A stretch of 64,000 nt of DNA from Vibrio coralliilyticus ATCC BAA-450. GTDB taxonomy: Bacteria; Pseudomonadota; Gammaproteobacteria; Enterobacterales; Vibrionaceae. This document shows positions 2,588 through 59,788 of this stretch, piece by piece. The stretch covers positions 434,001 through 498,000 of the forward strand of contig NZ_ACZN01000017.1 of the NCBI RefSeq assembly GCF_000176135.1. Direction: 5' to 3'. A program made the translations under genes and the position numbers. Under the pieces are notes generated by a model, which saw nothing but the letters and a program-made list of their open reading frames with translations, searched no databases and had not been told where the DNA came from. How positions within the stretch are numbered: position 1 is the stretch's first letter; every line of letters begins with the position of its first letter.

Positions 2588-3027
2588 TCGACTTTGATTT
2601 TCGCCCGGCCACACCGGGCGATTTCGACTTCTTATTCTCTCTCAAAAAGAACGCAGAATACGAAGCGATAAAAGCCATATTTGGTTGGGATGAAGAAGTA
2701 CAGCAGCGTATTCATCATGAAGAATGGCAGGAAGACCAGCCTACCATCGTGACTGTTGGCGGCCAGCCCGCTGGTAGCTTTTTGCTGCAAGATAAAGGCG
2801 AGCATCTGTATTTTTGTCGTTTCTTCCTTCTGGCCCGATACCACGGTAAAGGGATGGGAAGCAAAATACTGCAATACTGTATTGAGCTAGCCGACGCCCA
2901 ACGTAAGCCGATCCAACTGTGTTATTTGCAAGGAAACCGTGTGGGCAGTCTTTATCAACGCTTCGGGTTCCAATTCACGTTCGAAGATAACGCTTTTGTC
3001 TACATGAAAAGAGAACCTCTCATTTAA
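2584..3027 (+). CDS. GNAT-family N-acetyltransferase
   Basis: A 147-residue protein with the GNAT fold. The acetyl-CoA-binding motif A is visible as ARYHGKGMGSKILQYC (Q/RxxGxG/A pattern), followed by the beta-5 strand IQLCYLQGN and the C-terminal segment YQRFGFQFTFED ending in VYMKRE. It overlaps the end of yqfB by ATGA and is the last gene of the helicase-yqfB unit. Its end overlaps by a few bases the convergent binding-protein gene. The acceptor substrate is unknown; nothing marks it as a ribosomal-protein or antibiotic acetyltransferase. Confidence 0.82.
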   Translation: MIDFDFRPATPGDFDFLFSLKKNAEYEAIKAIFGWDEEVQQRIHHEEWQEDQPTIVTVGGQPAGSFLLQDKGEHLYFCRFFLLARYHGKGMGSKILQYCIELADAQRKPIQLCYLQGNRVGSLYQRFGFQFTFEDNAFVYMKREPLI

Positions 3028-3784
3028 CTCTCATGTTCTCAAAATAATCATATATGAGTGCTTCGTAACGTCCATCTTGCTTCATATCGAATAATACTTG
3101 ATCAAAGCGCTGGAGCAATTCGGCATGGCTGCGGTCTTTGGAAAATGCAATGTAGCTGGGCGTTGCTTCAATAGGAGGCGATAAAATATCAATGTCGCTA
3201 TCTAGTCCTTCTCTGACCAAAATGCTTCGGGCACCAAATTCATTGTTTACCCAAATATCAGCGCGTTTTGTACGGACGAGATGAGCGCATTCGACAGTGC
3301 TGTTTCTCTGGAAAATAAGCCGAAAGCGACCCTCTTCTATCTTAGCATCCATTCGTTTTCCATAACTCACACCATTGACGACACACAAAGCGATTTTGGA
3401 TACATCACCCGCTAAAATTTCCTCAGGTTTGTAGTCACTACCTTTAAGCGCCATCAAACTAATATTTTGGACGAAGAGCACATTTTGACTAAAATCTGCA
3501 AATTTTTCTCGCTCAGGATTTTTAAAGGCGGTGAAAATGCCATCCGCACGACCACGCTTTACCAGTGTAAGGGCTCTGGCCCAAGGCAATACGGTGATGT
3601 TGACTGGTGTTTCCAACTGATGGAACACATACCTCACTAGCTCTACAGCAACCCCTGAAACCTGCTGTCCCTGCATTTCTATATAGGGCGGGTATTCAAG
3701 TGTGACCAAATCAACCGGCCTTGCAGCACAAGGTTTTAGTGCCACTAGAGCAAGAATGATTGTTCCTAAACGCAACCACTTCAT
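3020..3784 (-). CDS. Solitary periplasmic substrate-binding protein (family 3, PBPb)
   Basis: A 254-residue exported protein of the amino-acid type solute-binding family (SBP_bac_3). I chose the ATG at 3784, not an upstream in-frame one, because it has GAAGGAGAC before it and gives a clean signal peptide (MKWLRLGTIILALVAL...CAA). The mature start VTLEYPPYIEMQGQQVSGVAVELV and the segment 'LPWARALTLVKRGRADGIF' are diagnostic. No ABC permease or ATPase is nearby. The neighbour is a divergent membrane-bound GGDEF protein. A sensing or accessory role is possible; ligand unknown. Confidence 0.82.
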   Translation of the reverse strand: MKWLRLGTIILALVALKPCAARPVDLVTLEYPPYIEMQGQQVSGVAVELVRYVFHQLETPVNITVLPWARALTLVKRGRADGIFTAFKNPEREKFADFSQNVLFVQNISLMALKGSDYKPEEILAGDVSKIALCVVNGVSYGKRMDAKIEEGRFRLIFQRNSTVECAHLVRTKRADIWVNNEFGARSILVREGLDSDIDILSPPIEATPSYIAFSKDRSHAELLQRFDQVLFDMKQDGRYEALIYDYFENMRVK

Positions 3785-3970
3785 CCTGTCTCCTTCACAT
3801 AAGCCAATGATTAAATGAGAAAGTTCTATGCAACCATAGAGCAATAACGCAATTGCATAACACTTAAGACCTTCTACACTTACATATCGTTAATATTAAT
3901 ATCACTAGACAATATCGTTTGACTTTTTACGTAAATCATCAGTTTTTGTAGCAGTTAACACGAGGATTCT

Positions 3971-5689
3971 ATGGTTCGCTCTTCTTTAAGTCGTTTTCAA
4001 TATTTCCCAATTCTCGCCCTTGCTCTTTCTATGGTAGTCGGTGGTTACTATTACGACAAAACCCTAGACAATTGGGTAACTGATATCGTCAGTAACTACA
4101 TGTCTAATCTGCTTGACGACGTCTCGCATCAGATTCAAGAAAAAGAGCTCGACCTCTATGACATGAGCCAACCTGAAATAGACGACTTCCTCGATAACCT
4201 TTCGCAATCCAGCTTTGAACAAAGATTTACCATCATACACAGCTCGGGAGCCGTGCTGGGAGACTCACAACTTACCAATAGGGAGATTTCCCAGTTGGAA
4301 GATCACAGTAGCAGACCCGAGATAAGTGCTGCTCTTTCCGGTGAAACTGGTTTATCCAAACGATTTAGCCAGTCCTTAAACCAAGAGTTACTTTATGTCG
4401 CTAAGAAGCTCGAACTTCCTGAAGACGACCATGGCCACGACTCAACTTATGTTCTCAGACTCGCGATGCCAATGACTTCGCTTTATGCCATGTCCGCCGA
4501 CCTCAAATTAATTGAGCACGCGCTAATGGCATTTTCGCTGGCCATTTTGATTCTCTTAACCTGGTTGAGTAACCGAAAAATCTACAAGCTTGTTAAAGAA
4601 GAAAGAGATCAACAGGAGTACCGTATTCAAAAAAGTACTCAAGAGATTGAGCTACTCCACCAACTCGCAAATATGCTCGCCGCTTGTAACAGCGTCAAAG
4701 AGGCACAAGTTGTCGTCGCAGACATCATTCCAAGAGTGCTAGGCAAAGTGAACGGTTGTGTTTCCATCATGCGTGACTCACGCAATCAACTCGAAGTTAA
4801 ACTCGACTGGGGAGGAGAATGGCCCGCGAGTAAACTCTACGCCCCCAATGACTGCTGGGCATTACGCAAAGGTAAATACCACCTATCGAAAGAAAAACAC
4901 CATAACCTCTCTTGCACCCATATGAGTAGTTCTTCCATTGAAGGGCTCACGTTGTGCGTTCCGCTAACCGCTCATGGTAATACTGTCGGCATGTTCCATC
5001 TCTATTTTGATGAACAATCTGAAGAAATATCCGAAGACATCAAACAACTCGCCTTCACGATTGCTGAGCATCTCGGATTGGCATTAGCTAACTTGAGCCT
5101 TCAAGAGAAACTGCGCTCGCAGGCGATGCGCGATCCGTTAACGGGGCTCTTCAATCGCCGTTACTTTGAGGAGATATTCGAAAAAGAATGGGCGAAAGCC
5201 TCTCAAGATGATTGTCCGATGTCCTTGCTGATGTTGGATTTAGATCATTTCAAACGTTTTAATGATAACTTCGGCCATGACGCGGGAGATTATGTTCTCA
5301 AGGAAGTCGCAAACTTGCTGAAACGCGAAATTGGCGACGAACACGTTGCCTGTCGTCTTGGTGGTGAAGAACTGGCGGTGATAAGCCCTAATTGCTCCAT
5401 CAGCGAATCTATGGAGCTGGCGAACCAAATTGTCAATTCCGTCAGAGATTTGCATTTAGACATGAAGGGCTTATCTCTGGGTCAACTTGGTGTCTCAATT
5501 GGGGTAACGACCTTCCCAGATTTAAATACCTCTACCACCGAACTCATTAAAGCGGCCGATACTGCCCTTTATCAGGCCAAAGACAACGGGCGGAGCCAAG
5601 CGGTACATACTCAATCAAAAGAATATCTTAAACAGCTAGAGACTGGCGCTCACTCTGAAAGCAGAGACGTGCTACCACTGAAACTCTAG
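3971..5689 (+). CDS. Membrane-bound GAF-GGDEF diguanylate cyclase-like protein
   Basis: A 572-residue inner-membrane signalling protein predicted to make cyclic di-GMP. It has an N-terminal membrane helix (about 9-28), a periplasmic domain of about 150 residues, a second helix (about 184-203), a coiled linker, a GAF-like domain (about 230-375) and a C-terminal GGDEF domain beginning 'MRDPLTGLFNRRYFEE'. The signature is Gly464-Gly-Glu-Glu-Leu468, so the usual last Phe is Leu. The metal-binding 'LDLDHFKRFND' is intact, so activity is plausible. The canonical RxxD product-inhibition site before GGEEL is absent. It is divergent from a solitary periplasmic binding protein. Confidence 0.88.
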   Translation: MVRSSLSRFQYFPILALALSMVVGGYYYDKTLDNWVTDIVSNYMSNLLDDVSHQIQEKELDLYDMSQPEIDDFLDNLSQSSFEQRFTIIHSSGAVLGDSQLTNREISQLEDHSSRPEISAALSGETGLSKRFSQSLNQELLYVAKKLELPEDDHGHDSTYVLRLAMPMTSLYAMSADLKLIEHALMAFSLAILILLTWLSNRKIYKLVKEERDQQEYRIQKSTQEIELLHQLANMLAACNSVKEAQVVVADIIPRVLGKVNGCVSIMRDSRNQLEVKLDWGGEWPASKLYAPNDCWALRKGKYHLSKEKHHNLSCTHMSSSSIEGLTLCVPLTAHGNTVGMFHLYFDEQSEEISEDIKQLAFTIAEHLGLALANLSLQEKLRSQAMRDPLTGLFNRRYFEEIFEKEWAKASQDDCPMSLLMLDLDHFKRFNDNFGHDAGDYVLKEVANLLKREIGDEHVACRLGGEELAVISPNCSISESMELANQIVNSVRDLHLDMKGLSLGQLGVSIGVTTFPDLNTSTTELIKAADTALYQAKDNGRSQAVHTQSKEYLKQLETGAHSESRDVLPLKL

Positions 5690-31964: not shown

Positions 31965-33905
31965 ATGAATAAACAACGTCAACTTGGCATCGACAAGCAA
32001 CTTGTCATTGTCACGCTCCTCGTGAGTCTCGTTCTCGCATTCGTTATGGCGGGAGTAAACTTCTACGTTGATTACCAAGTGGAGCAAAACAACTTAGATA
32101 AACAAATGCTTCAAATTGAAGACAGCTACGTCACAAGCCTGCAAAACAGCCTGTGGATTGAAGACCAAAAGCAACTCACGACTCAAGCCTCAAGCATCTT
32201 CCAGTTACCTGCAGTCGATCGATTAACCATCATCGACAGCAAAAGTACTCTTATAGAATTAGGTAACGAAATCACAGGTAAGAAGGTTACTAACGTCTGG
32301 GATTTAACTTACCAACTCGGCAACAAGAGCTTTACGCTCGGGCAATTAAGAATTGAAACCGATTTAGCTCCTGTCTATCACGCATTATGGCAAAAGTTCT
32401 TATTTCTGCTGGTGATGACCTTGATACAGACCTTACTCATTGTTTCCTGCTTATTATGGCTAACAATGAAACTGATCTTAAAACCCATTTCTCACCTTTC
32501 ATCTGCAATGGCTGATTTCCATACCAGCCCGACTCCCGACAAACTGGTGATGCCAAAACGATTGTTCCACGATGAGATCAGCCATCTGACAGACAAATAC
32601 AATCAATGTGCAGAGCAGCTACGAGTCAATTACCAGCAAATCATCGAGTCAAAAAAAAAGGCAGAAATCGCTAATGTTAAGAAAAGTGAATTCCTAGCCA
32701 ACATGAGCCACGAAATTCGCACCCCAATGAATGGGATCGTCGGCGTCGCTGAACTACTTAAAGAAACCAAGCCGAATGAAGTTCAGCGCAACTACGTCGA
32801 TATTTTGCTGACGTCGTCCCATACCTTGCTCGATATTATCAATGACATCCTCGATTTTTCGAAAATAGAAGCCGGCCACTTCGAATTGGATCCTACCAAG
32901 TTTGACCTCAAATCACTTATCCAACAGCAAGCCAACGAATATAGCATCCGCGCCAAGCAACAAGAGCTGTTCTTCGACTGCAATATAGACCCAGCTGTAC
33001 CTCAGGAAATAGAGGCTGATTCTGTCAGGCTGAAGCAGGTCATCAATAACTTGATCGGCAACGCCCTTAAGTTCACCCATCGTGGATATGTTGAGCTCAA
33101 CATCAAGCTGTTGGAAAACGAGACAGGCAACCAACTTCAGTTTGAAGTCAAAGATACAGGGATTGGTATCGCCAAAGACAAACTCGACTCAATCTTTGAC
33201 AAGTTTCAACAAGCCGATGGCAGCACAGCCCGACAATACGGAGGAACGGGGTTGGGGCTGGCGATAAGCCAAAAAATCGTTGAGTTGATGGGTGGTAAGC
33301 TCCAGGTGACCAGTGAAGTTGATCTTGGCAGCAGCTTTTATTTTTCTATCCCAATAGATACTCCATCAACGGCTATTGGGGGTATTGTTCAATCGTCACC
33401 AAATCTGGTTGAGTTTCCAGCTTCTTCTGGTACTCAGATGAAGAAGTTGTCTCCGAAATACAAAACTGGCCTCAAAGTGTTGGTTGTTGAAGATACTCGA
33501 GTAAACCAACAAGTGATTCAAGTAATGCTTAATTTGCTTGGTTTGGAGGTAGATATAGCGAATAACGGCGTCGAAGCTTTGGAATATTGTCAGCAGAATG
33601 AGGTGGACGCCATCTTGATGGACTGTCATATGCCTGTCATGGATGGTTACGAAGCAACACAGAAAATTCGTCAGCTCGAAGGTTGGGCGGCCTATGTACC
33701 TATCATTGCTGTCACAGCTAACGTGATCAAGGAGGATCGTGAGCGTTGTTTTGAAATCGGTATGAATGGTTTTCTCTCTAAACCGGTTAAGCCTAAAGAA
33801 ATAGAAGAAGCACTAATTGATTACGTCCCAGCTTATCAGAGTGCACAGAACAGAGCCAAAGTCGCCAATGGCAATAATTTGGACACACCAAGCTCGCGCT
33901 CTTAG
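31965..33905 (+). CDS. Hybrid sensor histidine kinase with receiver domain
   Basis: A 646-residue inner-membrane kinase: helix (about 12-35), periplasmic domain of about 110 residues, helix (about 142-168), HAMP-like linker, HisKA with FLANMSHEIRTPMNGIVG (phosphorylated His), HATPase with the N box (VINNLIGNALKFTH) and G boxes (DTGIGIAKDKL, GGTGLGLAISQ), and a C-terminal receiver with the acceptor Asp in ILMDCHMPVMDGYEAT. There is no Hpt domain, so a separate phosphotransfer protein is needed. A solitary binding-protein gene follows 147 bases later on the same strand, a possible sensory partner. Confidence 0.92.
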   Translation: MNKQRQLGIDKQLVIVTLLVSLVLAFVMAGVNFYVDYQVEQNNLDKQMLQIEDSYVTSLQNSLWIEDQKQLTTQASSIFQLPAVDRLTIIDSKSTLIELGNEITGKKVTNVWDLTYQLGNKSFTLGQLRIETDLAPVYHALWQKFLFLLVMTLIQTLLIVSCLLWLTMKLILKPISHLSSAMADFHTSPTPDKLVMPKRLFHDEISHLTDKYNQCAEQLRVNYQQIIESKKKAEIANVKKSEFLANMSHEIRTPMNGIVGVAELLKETKPNEVQRNYVDILLTSSHTLLDIINDILDFSKIEAGHFELDPTKFDLKSLIQQQANEYSIRAKQQELFFDCNIDPAVPQEIEADSVRLKQVINNLIGNALKFTHRGYVELNIKLLENETGNQLQFEVKDTGIGIAKDKLDSIFDKFQQADGSTARQYGGTGLGLAISQKIVELMGGKLQVTSEVDLGSSFYFSIPIDTPSTAIGGIVQSSPNLVEFPASSGTQMKKLSPKYKTGLKVLVVEDTRVNQQVIQVMLNLLGLEVDIANNGVEALEYCQQNEVDAILMDCHMPVMDGYEATQKIRQLEGWAAYVPIIAVTANVIKEDRERCFEIGMNGFLSKPVKPKEIEEALIDYVPAYQSAQNRAKVANGNNLDTPSSRS

Positions 33906-34052
33906 TATGAGAGTTAAAACCATTAGGCACCTGAGGGCCAAACGAAAGGATGAGATAGAAGCATTCACAAATAGTTAATCTTCATGAGTCAGACTACTTA
34001 TTGATCAAATTATCATCTAAATTTGAAGGTAGATGTGATAAAGGGAAGAGCT

Positions 34053-34826
34053 ATGAGTAGGATTTTTGCGATAATTTTGTTGTTCGTGTGCTCACCCTTA
34101 TCTGTCGCCCAAAATAGTGACAAAGTCGTAAAATTGGTTGTCGGTGATTGGGAACCGTATACCAGCAGCCTGAATAACCCAAATTATAAAATTGCCGAAG
34201 ACCTGGTCATCGCTGCTTACCAAACGCAAGGCTATAGTGTCACTATCGACTATCATCCTTGGAGCAGAGCTTATCGTTACGTTGAGTCAGGCAAATATGA
34301 CGGAACATTCCCTTGGTTTAAGAACGATGAACGACAATCCCTTTTCATCTTCTCAGAATCCCTGTTCACACAAAAAATTGTCTTTTTCTACCATGTCGAC
34401 AGCAACTTTGATTGGCAAAAATCATTGGATTTAAACAACTACCATATTGGTGCGACACAAGCCTATGAAGTGACCCGCTTGCTCCAGTCGCAGGGCGTAA
34501 AAGTCGAGGTTGCCAATGAGGACCAAAGTAATTTTATTAAACTAGGGAAACAACGCATAGACGCTTACCCAGCGGCGGTTGAACGTGGTTACTACATGAT
34601 GGGCACGATACTTTCTGCCATACAGATAAATAAGATCCGGATTCACCCTAAGCCAATTATGGAAAAAGACATGTACACTATGTTCTCTAAGCATGATCAT
34701 GAGCGTAGTGCACGCCTTAGTGAAGCACTCAGTTTAGGCATCCAACAATTGATTCAATCGGGTGAATACCAAAAGATCATCAGTGTAGAAAATCAAATTT
34801 CTGTCTCTCACCCGTCCGACTTATAA
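34053..34826 (+). CDS. Solitary periplasmic substrate-binding protein (family 3)
   Basis: A 257-residue exported protein of the SBP_bac_3 fold. The ATG at 34053 is preferred, with AAGGGAAGAG just upstream and a normal signal peptide (MSRIFAIILLFVCSPLSVAQ); the longer frame adds ten unlikely residues. Typical segments are VGDWEPYTSS, DYHPWSRAYRYVESGKYDGTFPWF, LNNYHIGATQAYEVTRLLQSQGV and the end GIQQLIQSGEYQKI. No ABC transporter genes lie nearby. Its position after a hybrid histidine kinase suggests a sensory rather than uptake role; ligand unknown. Confidence 0.82.
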   Translation: MSRIFAIILLFVCSPLSVAQNSDKVVKLVVGDWEPYTSSLNNPNYKIAEDLVIAAYQTQGYSVTIDYHPWSRAYRYVESGKYDGTFPWFKNDERQSLFIFSESLFTQKIVFFYHVDSNFDWQKSLDLNNYHIGATQAYEVTRLLQSQGVKVEVANEDQSNFIKLGKQRIDAYPAAVERGYYMMGTILSAIQINKIRIHPKPIMEKDMYTMFSKHDHERSARLSEALSLGIQQLIQSGEYQKIISVENQISVSHPSDL

Positions 34827-55059: not shown

Positions 55060-56421
55060 TCAATCATTGATTGAAGTTAACCGAACAGACTTAGAACCTT
55101 TTTTGCAGACTGTAGTTTTCCCATCAAAACACGCGGATCCCGCCATCTGTTTCGCTCTGTACATCGCCTCGTCGGCAATACTTAATAAGACTTCTTTGTT
55201 CTTAGTCTGATCAGGGAAATAACTGACGCCAATACTAGCTCCTACTTTGAGGGTTCGGCCGTTGAACTCAATCGGTGCGTTAATCGCATCCAGCAGTTGC
55301 TCAGCCTTTTTTGCAACAATATCAAAGTCATGCAAAAGATCGAGGCAGATAACGAACTCATCCCCCCCAAAACGGCCAACAAAATCAGATTCACGGATTG
55401 CCGCTGTGATACGACTTGCCACCTCAACAAGAATGGCGTCTCCCGCTTCATGGCCAAATGTGTCATTGACGGACTTAAAGTCATCCAAATCAATGAAGAA
55501 AATAGCCAGTTTACACTGAGTACGGTTCGCTTTAACGATCGCATTCTCTAATGCTTTATCAAATGCTCTGCGGTTGACGAGATTCGTCAGAGGGTCGTGC
55601 TCTGATAAAAATATCAGCTGCTCCTGCTTATGTTTGAGCTGCTGAGTCTGGCGCATCACCTCTTCTTCCAGTTCTTGCTTAGTTACTGTTGTTTCACACA
55701 ATGACATTGTCATCTGATTAAAAAATTGCGCCATGATTCGAAACTCAGTATCCATTTTCACTGCTTCGACTTTTGAGTCTAATTTCCCTTCAGCCAAGTC
55801 GATAATCGCATTCTTCATTGCTTCGGCACCGGATTTAAAGCGGAACGAAATCAACCAAGCCGTCGCACTGACCAAGACTGAACAGATGATCAACCATGCT
55901 GCCGCATAAAGCATAACTTGATGCAGGCTGTTTGCATTACGGTTAAGTACAGACTGATGAACATAAGCCAGCTCTTCTGTCATGTTCTGAACAATCATGT
56001 TGTAACGAGAGTGGAGTAAGCCTCGCGCATTGATGTTTGCGGACCCCTGCTCGTCGAGGCCATTGATGGATAAAAAGTACACTTGTTTTTCTTTATTCAG
56101 CAGCGCATTTAAGCTGTGATTCATACGCTGGATATTTCCTAGCTGACTGTTGTTCTGCTTATAAGCTGTCAATTTGGTCGCTAACTCCGCCTGAGCCAAT
56201 TCCACTTGATTGAGGCTGGATTCATCACCAAACTGAAGGAAGACCCACAACTGGCTTCTGAGTAAATCAACGCACAATTGTAAATCAATGATCTGATCCA
56301 ATTCGGCTTTTGTTTCACGTTGTTCTCCCGCCACTTTCGCAAAAGAAATGATGATGAATAACGTCAGCATCAAGGTTGTCGTTGATAGTACAAACAGCTT
56401 TTTAAACAGTGAATCCAACAT
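55060..56421 (-). CDS. Membrane diguanylate cyclase with periplasmic sensor
   Basis: A 453-residue cyclase. N-terminal helix (about 7-28), periplasmic helical domain (about 30-170, KAELDQIIDLQLCVDLLRSQ, then LWVFLQFGDESSLNQVELAQ), second helix (about 172-192), HAMP-like segment (LAEGKLDSKVEAVKMDTEFRIM), coiled coil, and a GGDEF domain from about 275. The active-site motif is GRFGGDEFVICLD, preceded by RESDF, so the RxxD inhibitory site is present. The start lies three bases after the stop of the NMT1-type binding-protein gene, so the two are almost certainly co-translated. Confidence 0.92.
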   Translation of the reverse strand: MLDSLFKKLFVLSTTTLMLTLFIIISFAKVAGEQRETKAELDQIIDLQLCVDLLRSQLWVFLQFGDESSLNQVELAQAELATKLTAYKQNNSQLGNIQRMNHSLNALLNKEKQVYFLSINGLDEQGSANINARGLLHSRYNMIVQNMTEELAYVHQSVLNRNANSLHQVMLYAAAWLIICSVLVSATAWLISFRFKSGAEAMKNAIIDLAEGKLDSKVEAVKMDTEFRIMAQFFNQMTMSLCETTVTKQELEEEVMRQTQQLKHKQEQLIFLSEHDPLTNLVNRRAFDKALENAIVKANRTQCKLAIFFIDLDDFKSVNDTFGHEAGDAILVEVASRITAAIRESDFVGRFGGDEFVICLDLLHDFDIVAKKAEQLLDAINAPIEFNGRTLKVGASIGVSYFPDQTKNKEVLLSIADEAMYRAKQMAGSACFDGKTTVCKKGSKSVRLTSIND

Positions 56422-56424
56422 AGC

Positions 56425-57429
56425 TTACTCTCGCAAAGCAATGATTTGTTGATAGGGTTGAGTAAAGAACAAGTCTCTGAAGTCGGGTTGTTCGCTCCCG
56501 ACCAGTCCGCTTTCTACTGCCCATCTCGCTTGTAATTGCAGATTAGAAAGCAACGAATTGCCCAGCGATAAACGGAAAACATAGTCTTCCCATGACCACT
56601 TAACTTGATTGGCAGGAATATTGAGGCGTTTAGTAATGATGCCCAAAGCCTTGTCCGGATTTGCATTGATCCATTCCACAGCTTCATCAAGAGCGCCCAA
56701 TAATTGCGTGGGCTCATTACCGGCAAACTCAAGATAAGGAGTGGTCGACAGTAAATTGAAGGACTGTTGATAAATCCCCGGAGTACCCAGATTACTCACT
56801 TCGGCAGCAGATAAGATGTCGGCTTTGTAACCCATTGGCTCCCAAGCTGAAATCGCTTCCACACGATAGGACAGTAACGCTGGAACCAACTCATGAGGCT
56901 GGAGATAGACTTTTTCTACATTGAGGGTTTTGAGATTGTTGGCAATCAGCACAGAATCAAAATAAAACTCGCTGGCACTGCCTTTTACTACACCTACTTT
57001 CTTACCTTGTAGCGCTCCCACGTCTCCGACTTCAGAGGGGTTTAGCGTAAGCAGCTTAAGGTCATTATCTGACTCAACAAAGCTCACCAGCAATGCCAAA
57101 TCTTTACGCTCAAAACTCTGAAACATCACTACCGATTCGGAGGCGGTCGCGTACTCGACATCTCGATTTAGCATCAATTGGGTACAGGCTATTCCACTAG
57201 CACAAGGGTACAAAGTGACATCAAGATCATAGTCATCGAAAAGGCCAAGGTGTTCAGCAATCAAAAAGGGAGAAGCCAGCGGAGTCAAAGAGACACCGAC
57301 TCTTATTTTGGTATCATTGGTCTTGTTTCGCGATTCATACTGACTGGCAAACAAAGCTGCTACTCCAATGAGTAAGGAGCCAAGACCTAAAGCCATTAAA
57401 TTCCGTTTAACAAGTGGCATAACATACAC
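56425..57429 (-). CDS. Solitary NMT1/TauA-type periplasmic binding protein
   Basis: A 334-residue substrate-binding protein of the nitrate/sulfonate/thiamine-precursor type (NMT1/TauA fold). An uncleaved anchor is likely (LMALGLGSLLIGVAALFAS). The signature VGVSLTPLASPFLIAEHLGL, then FDDYDLDVTLYPCASG is clear. Later segments are LQGKKVGVVKGSASEFYFDS, ISAWEPMGYKADIL and ANQVKWSWEDYVFRLSL. The ATG at 57420 (MPLVKRNLM) is also possible. No permease or ATPase is near; the only partner is the cyclase three bases downstream, so it may load a ligand signal onto that cyclase. Confidence 0.87.
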   Translation of the reverse strand: MYVMPLVKRNLMALGLGSLLIGVAALFASQYESRNKTNDTKIRVGVSLTPLASPFLIAEHLGLFDDYDLDVTLYPCASGIACTQLMLNRDVEYATASESVVMFQSFERKDLALLVSFVESDNDLKLLTLNPSEVGDVGALQGKKVGVVKGSASEFYFDSVLIANNLKTLNVEKVYLQPHELVPALLSYRVEAISAWEPMGYKADILSAAEVSNLGTPGIYQQSFNLLSTTPYLEFAGNEPTQLLGALDEAVEWINANPDKALGIITKRLNIPANQVKWSWEDYVFRLSLGNSLLSNLQLQARWAVESGLVGSEQPDFRDLFFTQPYQQIIALRE

Positions 57430-58546: not shown

Positions 58547-59788
58547 TTAGCGCTCACAACGCTTAAGTCTTCTTTTTATATTGCCTTCTTTGACCATGAA
58601 ATCGAATAACGGCGCAAATAAATTAGCAAACAGAATAGCCAGCATTATCCCCTCGGGGTATGCAGGGTTAAGCGCTCTAATGCCTATTGTCATAACACCA
58701 ATGAGGATGCCATATGCCCATTTACCTTTGTTAGTAAACGCAGCCGAGACAGGGTCCGTGGCCATGAAGAAAGTGCCAAATGCCACACCACCCAATACGA
58801 AGTGCCAGTAGAAAGGCATCGAGAACATGGGGTTAGTTTGAGAACCAATCACGTTAAGCAGTGTTGAAGTAACAGCTAAACCCATGATAACGCCCGCGAC
58901 AATCCGCCACGATGCGATTCTCATCGCTATGAGAAGCAAGCCAGCGAGCATGATCAGCAACGTAGAAACTTCTCCCATCGAACCGGGAAGATTACCCAAG
59001 AACGCGTCGCTCCAACGCAACACTTCACCAGTCATATTGTTTATCAGAGCACCTTGACCACCTTCATACCATTGACTCAGCGGTGTCGCTCCAGAATAAC
59101 CATCAGCGGCAACCCATACCGCGCCTCCTGACATGTTGGCAGGATAGGCAAAGTAGAGAAACGCTCTCCCAGCCAGAGCAGGATTCAAAAAATTTCGACC
59201 TGTGCCACCAAATATCTCTTTTGCCACGACAATACCAAAGGTGATACCGAGTGCAGCTTGCCAAAGAGGGATGGTAGGAGGAAGAATGAGAGAGAAGAGT
59301 ACAGAGCTCACGAAGAAACCTTCGTTTACTTCATGTTTCCTCACAACTGCAAACAATACTTCCCAAAAGCCTCCGACAACAAAAACGGTGGCGTAAACTG
59401 GTAGAAAGTAACTTGCCCCAAGCAGCATTTTGCTCATCCAGCCGGCATCGGCGACCCCCTGAGCGGAGCCGAATGCCAACATTAGTCTCCAACTATCAGC
59501 AACAACGGTCTCCAATTCTGCCACAGAGTATACGCTTAACAGAGCCATGGAGGACTGGTTACCAACATTGTACATCCCCCAAAACATGGCAGGGAAAGTC
59601 GCCAGCCACACCATTATCATAATGCGTTTCAAATCAATGCTGTCACGCACATGTGTCACACCTCTATTCACTAAACCTGGGGTATAAAATATGGTCGCAG
59701 CGGCCTCGAACACGGGATAAAACTTCTCATACTTACCGCCCGGTTCGAAATCGGGGGCTATGGCATCCAGTCTACTTTTCAAGCTCAT
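58547..59788 (-). CDS. nqrB: Solitary NqrB-like subunit of Na+-translocating NADH:quinone reductase
   Basis: A 413-residue inner-membrane protein that is unmistakably Nqr[21 protein letters not shown] near the start, [20 protein letters not shown] in the middle, [11 protein letters not shown] (the conserved Thr that carries covalent FMN in Vibrio NqrB), [20 protein letters not shown], and [21 protein letters not shown]. In the normal operon it is followed by nqrC-F and preceded by nqrA. Here it stands alone, divergent from a bd-type oxidase. All obvious residues are intact, so it is probably an extra copy rather than a pseudogene; Vibrio species usually carry a full nqr operon elsewhere, which I cannot see here. 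Confidence 0.93.

Follow-up and report, generated by a model that had tools for sequence, protein, structure and literature searches.

The genes of a solute-binding protein (SBP) of the NMT1/SsuA fold and of a membrane diguanylate cyclase were found together nearly always, and the two proteins therefore probably constitute a two-part external sensor. The pair lies in the window, i.e. the whole 64,000-nucleotide stretch of Vibrio coralliilyticus ATCC BAA-450 DNA that was analysed. We consider it likely that the SBP and the cyclase act as one external receptor through which a ligand gates the synthesis of cyclic di-GMP (c-di-GMP), as described below. The SBP would be exported, with its N-terminal hydrophobic segment perhaps keeping it at the inner membrane, and would close on a small external molecule or change its occupancy. 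We infer that its docking site is the helical periplasmic domain of a dimeric cyclase and that the movement would pass via the second transmembrane helix (TM2) and a HAMP-like linker to alter the pairing of the two GGDEF domains. The c-di-GMP output would follow the ligand, with the loaded SBP either activating or inhibiting the cyclase, and the SBP would feed no transporter.

The gene pair and its products

Both genes are on the minus strand, where reading frames at the coordinates given in the earlier note encode the 334-aa SBP (57429-56425) and then the 453-aa cyclase (56421-55060). The SBP gene starts with GTG, and an alternative in-frame ATG is located at 57420. The earlier note had described the two genes as co-translated, with three bases between the SBP stop and the cyclase start and with no transporter genes. 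The 3-nt gap before the cyclase ATG (56422..56424, minus strand) was confirmed, as was the adjacency. Co-translation itself is graded only as likely because of this gap and because -4 nt was the commonest gap among relatives (66 of 175 partner-bearing loci, with 0-10 nt in another 65). Pfam assignment of the nine genes around the pair, which include those for an RND efflux pump and its adaptor, MerR/methyltransferase, HAD, YitT, SDR, NQR2/RnfD-like and cytochrome bd proteins, gave no ABC permease or ATPase, in agreement with the note. The NQR2/RnfD-family gene (58547-59788, minus strand) had no other nqr or rnf genes among the neighbours scanned. A promoter and terminator scan gave no excess over shuffled sequences (5 versus 5.0 and 0 versus 2.4, respectively). 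A defence system was also considered as the identity of the pair and was rejected, as PADLOC gave no match.

The SBP matched Pfam NMT1 (E 8e-13), and at E ≤ 0.1 only NMT1 and NMT1_2 matched; its score against the NCBIfam SsuA_fam model (70.2 bits) was well below the cut-off (163.5). The best structural match of its AlphaFold2 model (pLDDT 91) was Escherichia coli SsuA 2x26 (Z 31.4, 2.5 Å over 284 residues), and TauA 6ssy gave Z 27.0. Two motifs stood out in alignment A1, whose 46 rows comprise the window SBP and those from 45 of 58 loci (L009-L066), near-copies and broken or cut genes having been left out. The hinge-region motif SFVESDNDLK (residues 116-125; 57055..57084, minus strand) was invariant except at position 124 and falls in the model on strands 111-120 and 124-129; E119 and D121 were variable in the wider SBP set. 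The motif W-E-P (residues 196-198; 56836..56844, minus strand) was invariant, and its Trp corresponds in alignment to the TauA pocket Trp. In some relatives (L029, L065, L193 in G767 and L196 in G801) the SBP gene was split in two, and the cyclase gene nevertheless adjoined it.

Hydropathy indicated an N-terminal hydrophobic segment in the SBP (residues 11-29; 57343..57399, minus strand), which would be a signal peptide or an uncleaved anchor; no lipobox was seen in it. A rough motif scan of the N-termini of 135 distinct SBPs found a lipobox in 20, many of them from Shewanella, an AxA-like site in 50 and neither in 65. Since 65 had no cleavage motif and 20 had a lipobox in this rough scan, membrane tethering is plausible in many members of the family.

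The cyclase has the layout TM–periplasmic helices–TM–HAMP–GGDEF, and the following coordinates are all on the minus strand. TM1 (residues 9-27; 56341..56397) and TM2 (residues 173-191; 55849..55905) were located by hydropathy. The sensor domain between them (residues 28-172, about 145 residues; 55906..56340) is covered by no Pfam family above cut-off and is almost wholly helical in the AlphaFold2 model (pLDDT 83). The periplasmic helical domain that the earlier note proposed as a receiver of the loaded SBP is real, and it co-occurred and co-diverged with the SBP as set out in the next section. The HAMP-like linker (residues 201-241; 55699..55821) was a sub-threshold Pfam match, and the GGDEF domain (residues 274-425; 55147..55602) matched with E 5e-46; no EAL domain was found by Pfam. 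When the cyclase model was searched against the PDB, the 50 matches listed included GGDEF-bearing entries. The active-site motif GGDEF (residues 352-356; 55354..55368) was invariant in alignment A2 (42 rows: 41 relatives and the window cyclase), in which the RxxD motif (residues 343-346; 55384..55395) was also located. Among 135 distinct GGDEF-type partners, 133 had GGDEF or GGEEF, and RxxD was present in 126 of 133. The window protein should make c-di-GMP, and RxxD, the product-inhibition site, suggests that its activity would be subject to product inhibition.

YfiR acts on YfiN as a periplasmic regulator, and the SBP might likewise be a ligand-independent regulator that holds the cyclase off in the manner of YfiR–YfiN or HmsC–HmsD and lets it go in response to cues from redox state, stress or the envelope. 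The best NCBIfam match of the cyclase, DgcN/YfiN, is in line with this even at a score below cut-off (188.5 versus 325 bits), and HmsC-HmsD is called a protein-based redox switch in the available text of a review (PMC8846402). We nevertheless think such a role unlikely, for a number of the best-conserved SBP residues lie, as placed by secondary structure and profile alignment, at the hinge and the ligand cleft, which would be expected if the SBP still binds a ligand.

Conservation and co-divergence of the pair

Named genomes were scanned with peptide patterns from the query, which gave 58 loci with an SBP relative from Vibrio, Shewanella, Salinivibrio, Motilimonas and Oceanospirillaceae. The next gene encoded a GGDEF protein at 51 of these loci and a GGDEF-EAL protein at five; of the two partnerless loci, L058 is at a contig end and L062, from a metagenome-assembled genome, is a real absence. 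Small proteins that look like CheY-type receivers follow the module at two Neptuniibacter loci (L059, 7302-7727; L062, 5055-5483), and at L062 the SBP and the receiver-like protein are kept with no cyclase gene between them.

Because the first scan used peptide patterns from the query, a profile scan was repeated over evenly drawn genomes, in which at most 11 first-look SBP candidates per genome were scored for the genus sample and at most five for the other samples. SBP matches were obtained in 41 of 394 genomes of the order, 15 of 369 of the class and 71 of 196 of the genus. At the resulting 125 loci, which overlap with the 58 named loci as some genomes are in both sets, the next gene downstream encoded a GGDEF protein in 105 cases (one of them GGDEF-HD, L090), a GGDEF-EAL protein in six and a histidine kinase in eight, i.e. 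a signalling partner at 119 loci. Two of the rest were contig ends and four had other genes (L078-L080 and L087); at L087, the sensor and the GGDEF-EAL protein are in separate frames, the sensor frame coming first. Since adjacency was conserved over the 125 loci, chance is excluded as the source of the pairing.

The reverse search used a 26-row profile (A3) of the N-terminal region of the cyclase, containing the TMs and the periplasmic part without GGDEF. At most 17 first-look candidates per genome were scored in the 196 Vibrio genomes, so that a stray sensor may be missed. Among the scored candidates, the SBP was found in 71 genomes, the sensor in 70, both in 70 and the sensor alone in none. 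In the sole genome with only the SBP (G830), this SBP is a distant one and the next gene encodes a GGDEF-EAL protein (L084). The sensor lay directly 3' of the SBP match on the same strand at 72 of 74 places, with 15-46 nt from match to match; the exceptions were G924, in which sensor and SBP are on different contigs with the SBP at a contig end, and a second gene piece in G879. Three genomes (G788, G800 and G189) had two SBPs and two sensors, the second copies being again SBP–cyclase pairs. These counts bear out the conservation of the two-gene unit, which the earlier note had named as a check, and gain or loss of the patchy pair (71 of 196 Vibrio genomes) seems to involve both genes at once. 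A conjugative plasmid of Vibrio nigripulchritudo also carries an SBP–cyclase pair, surrounded by further GGDEF genes (L261, NZ_AP027047.1, 56801-65634).

The distances among 66 of the 67 cyclase-linked representatives were then compared. SBP distances correlated with those of the sensor (r 0.88) and of the GGDEF domain (r 0.80). The partial correlation between SBP and sensor given GGDEF was 0.65, with 0 of 500 permutations as high, and those between SBP and GGDEF given the sensor and between sensor and GGDEF given the SBP were 0.35 and 0.34. The divergence of the sensor is, therefore, tied more closely to that of the SBP, the product of another gene, than to that of the GGDEF domain in its own chain. 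Co-divergence of this kind would fit physical contact, not prove it; co-transfer and a shared rate can also produce it.

Short gaps between genes favour co-inheritance, and the pair could be an old operon kept by synteny with no physical coupling of its products. This explanation is hardly credible when set against the flanks: a partner was present at 32 of the 33 named non-Vibrio loci, and at none of these 32, only loci already having a partner being counted, were YitT, SDR, HAD or RND adaptor genes of the window flanks found. The joint presence and absence of SBP and sensor across the Vibrio genomes and a co-divergence that goes beyond the attached GGDEF domain likewise speak against it.

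The ligand pocket and relatives with other outputs

The ligand was approached through the contacts of TauA, which in the available text of PMC6906117 are the sulfonate-binding Gln30, Gly61, Gly79 and Thr132, the hinge Glu106 and the pocket Trp176; those of Xanthomonas citri SsuA are of the same kind in the text available of PMC3839906. In a profile alignment, Gly61 was kept as G79 of the SBP, and Gln30, Gly79 and Thr132 were altered to T49, A94 and A152, so that three of the four sulfonate-coordinating positions differ by alignment, not by structure. The hinge Glu106 aligned with N122/D123 and Trp176 with W196. T49, D123, K125, E154 and W196-E197-P198 were conserved at 97-100% in the 67 cyclase-linked SBPs; eight kinase-linked SBPs had His at 154 in 75% and Pro at 100 in all. 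The altered residues together with this conservation argue against a sulfonate ligand, and sulfonate was lowered as a candidate, most of the SsuA/TauA contacts being missing from the aligned pocket. The pattern hints that the cyclase-linked lineage has a ligand specificity of its own, and an amine-bearing or cationic ligand, suggested by the conserved acidic pocket residues, is a guess worth testing. This reading of the pocket is only a lead because the underlying sequence alignment is at about 14-20% identity.

The five GGDEF-EAL partners at the named loci, from Neptuniibacter, Pontibacterium and another Oceanospirillaceae genome, matched in their periplasmic parts a sensor profile built from cyclases only (40-45 bits, E 7e-11 to 1e-12) and carry a clearly different output on a homologous sensor. 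This periplasm-only profile matched 147 of 156 GGDEF partners, five of 11 GGDEF-EAL partners and none of eight kinase partners; in two partners (L083 and L090) the sensor is instead of dCache type. The partner of more distant SBP relatives is a histidine kinase; it contains HisKA, together with HATPase in the complete proteins, usually HAMP, and often PAS, receiver or Hpt domains. A sample across the phylum gave SBP matches in 41 of 398 genomes and 34 new loci, with a histidine kinase directly downstream at 22 and directly upstream at two. Two others (L229 and L230) are operons with a permease and an ATPase, identified by Pfam in L229 and by gene size and TMs in L230, and the remaining eight, including the orphan SBP of L227, are orphan, unresolved or beside unrelated genes.

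The SBP relative of L229 (3915-6753; 195 bits) belongs to a 6.7 Mb genome of the same phylum, and the ligand of this possible transporter relative could hint at the signal. At L078-L080, where the SBP matches are weak (72-79 bits), the next gene encodes about 265 aa with several TMs and is transporter-like by size and TMs. These three were the only loci among the 125 with a transporter-like gene next, so that the position mainly in ABC operons that the earlier note had named as contrary evidence does not describe the close family. Because the ABC-linked relatives exist (L229, L230 and L078-L080), the SBP may still have a dual role in reception and transport.

That the main role of the SBP is to supply an ABC importer encoded elsewhere, with the cyclase a transcriptional passenger or an incidental user of the SBP, would suit its SsuA/TauA fold, the ABC-linked relative at L229 and the four other NMT1 matches elsewhere in the genome. 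We regard it as very improbable in view of a pair with no ABC genes adjoining it, a sensor never found without the SBP among the scored candidates of 196 Vibrio genomes, the closer tracking of the SBP than of its own GGDEF domain by the sensor, and the histidine kinases that occupy the same gene position in relatives.

The relation between the two kinds of sensor was examined at the level of profiles. In the kinase-type group, the periplasmic parts of 36 partners belong to a single family (at least 15 bits in 32 of 36, self left out), and four of the six GGDEF-EAL members of this group are within those 32. Homology of the kinase-partner sensors claimed from a HAMP-containing profile was dropped because the match vanished with the periplasm-only profile. 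When cyclase-type and kinase-type sensors were compared profile to profile, the probability was 49% (E 1.7e-4), and it was 26% (E 7e-4) when the kinase set was enlarged. Against the kinase-type profile, the highest-scoring cyclase-type sensor reached 22 bits, and 15 bits with the larger set, versus at most 3.4 and 4.9 bits for 13 control loops, which were taken from two-TM HAMP proteins of 30 loci among the 64 matches listed. A relationship between the two sensor types is, on these scores, no more than suggestive.

A tree was built from 91 of 150 distinct SBPs, retained after clustering at 75% and length filters. The output label changed 10 times on it versus a shuffled mean of 23.3, a count that is approximate because 32 of the 88 inner branches have weak support and some of the long branches join one another. 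It is conceivable, and we advance it tentatively, that the SBP lineage is a portable co-receptor over much of Pseudomonadota for one conserved class of non-sulfonate cue, rewired to histidine kinases, to GGDEF-EAL proteins and, in Vibrio, Shewanella and their kin, to a dedicated diguanylate cyclase, with the SBP membrane-tethered and transport lost. The SBP relatives with different outputs offer a natural series for examining how one input drives different outputs.

Comparison with known systems

As in SBP-gated receptors, the window pair links a dedicated SBP to a receptor whose sensor is extracytoplasmic. The principle is not new because SBP-driven c-di-GMP receptors are already known. The nearest tested analogue is NspS–MbaA of Vibrio cholerae and Sinorhizobium meliloti, in which, according to excerpts of PMC9993111, the SBP gene lies directly upstream and overlaps, polyamine sensing alters c-di-GMP signalling, and norspermidine-loaded NspS promotes the cyclase activity of MbaA. 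As far as those excerpts go, the two systems share an SBP gene directly 5' of the c-di-GMP gene and a membrane partner whose periplasmic domain lies between two TMs. They differ in that NspS belongs to the PotD-type polyamine SBPs and its partner MbaA combines GGDEF with EAL, whereas the window SBP is of NMT1/SsuA type and its partner has GGDEF without EAL. The window SBP shares its fold and pocket Trp with the SsuA/TauA/NMT1 importer proteins; unlike those of SsuABC and TauABC, it has no adjoining permease or ATPase, and in the alignment most sulfonate-coordinating residues are changed.

TorT-TorS is an example of an SBP beside a sensor histidine kinase. Such gene neighbours are common according to the available text of PMC11113362, and as described there they resemble the window pair in that the SBP adjoins a two-TM receptor; relatives of the window SBP themselves precede HAMP-HisKA-HATPase kinases, whereas the window output is a diguanylate cyclase. 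Binding-protein folds are also linked to c-di-GMP control in GGDEF proteins to which an SBP_bac_3 domain is fused, RmcA among them, and in STM1987 with ArtI, as excerpts of PMC8846402 describe them. The window pair makes the same kind of link, unlike them with an SBP of another Pfam family encoded by a separate gene and with a plain helical sensor that has no fused SBP or dCache domain.

Many SBP families contact receptors (PMC9602780, in excerpt), and SBP_bac_3 was the only one of 27 PBP-clan families studied in c-di-GMP networks as of 2022 according to the available text of a review (PMC8846402). An NMT1-type SBP with a GGDEF partner was not found in titles and abstract starts of the open-access literature, which does not prove its absence from print. 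Within that open-access scope, no description of this NMT1/SsuA-type SBP family, its partner sensor or the differences in output was found. With a conserved pair of this type in Vibrio and Shewanella, a second kind of SBP would join c-di-GMP networks. The genome of the window has 62 GGDEF-domain matches, and to our knowledge the signals for most diguanylate cyclases are unknown. A dedicated SBP offers a direct route to the signal of a cyclase, as the purified protein can be screened for ligands.

The earlier note had counted three binding-protein/signalling pairs in the window. Two other candidate pairs do exist; they differ in kind, and both have SBP_bac_3 proteins. An SBP_bac_3 gene (3020-3844, minus strand) is divergent to a GGDEF protein gene (3971-5689, plus strand) 126 nt away and is presumably part of one of the three pairs. 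A CHASE5 hybrid histidine kinase gene (31965-33905, plus strand) followed by an SBP_bac_3 gene (34023-34826, plus strand) is presumably the third.
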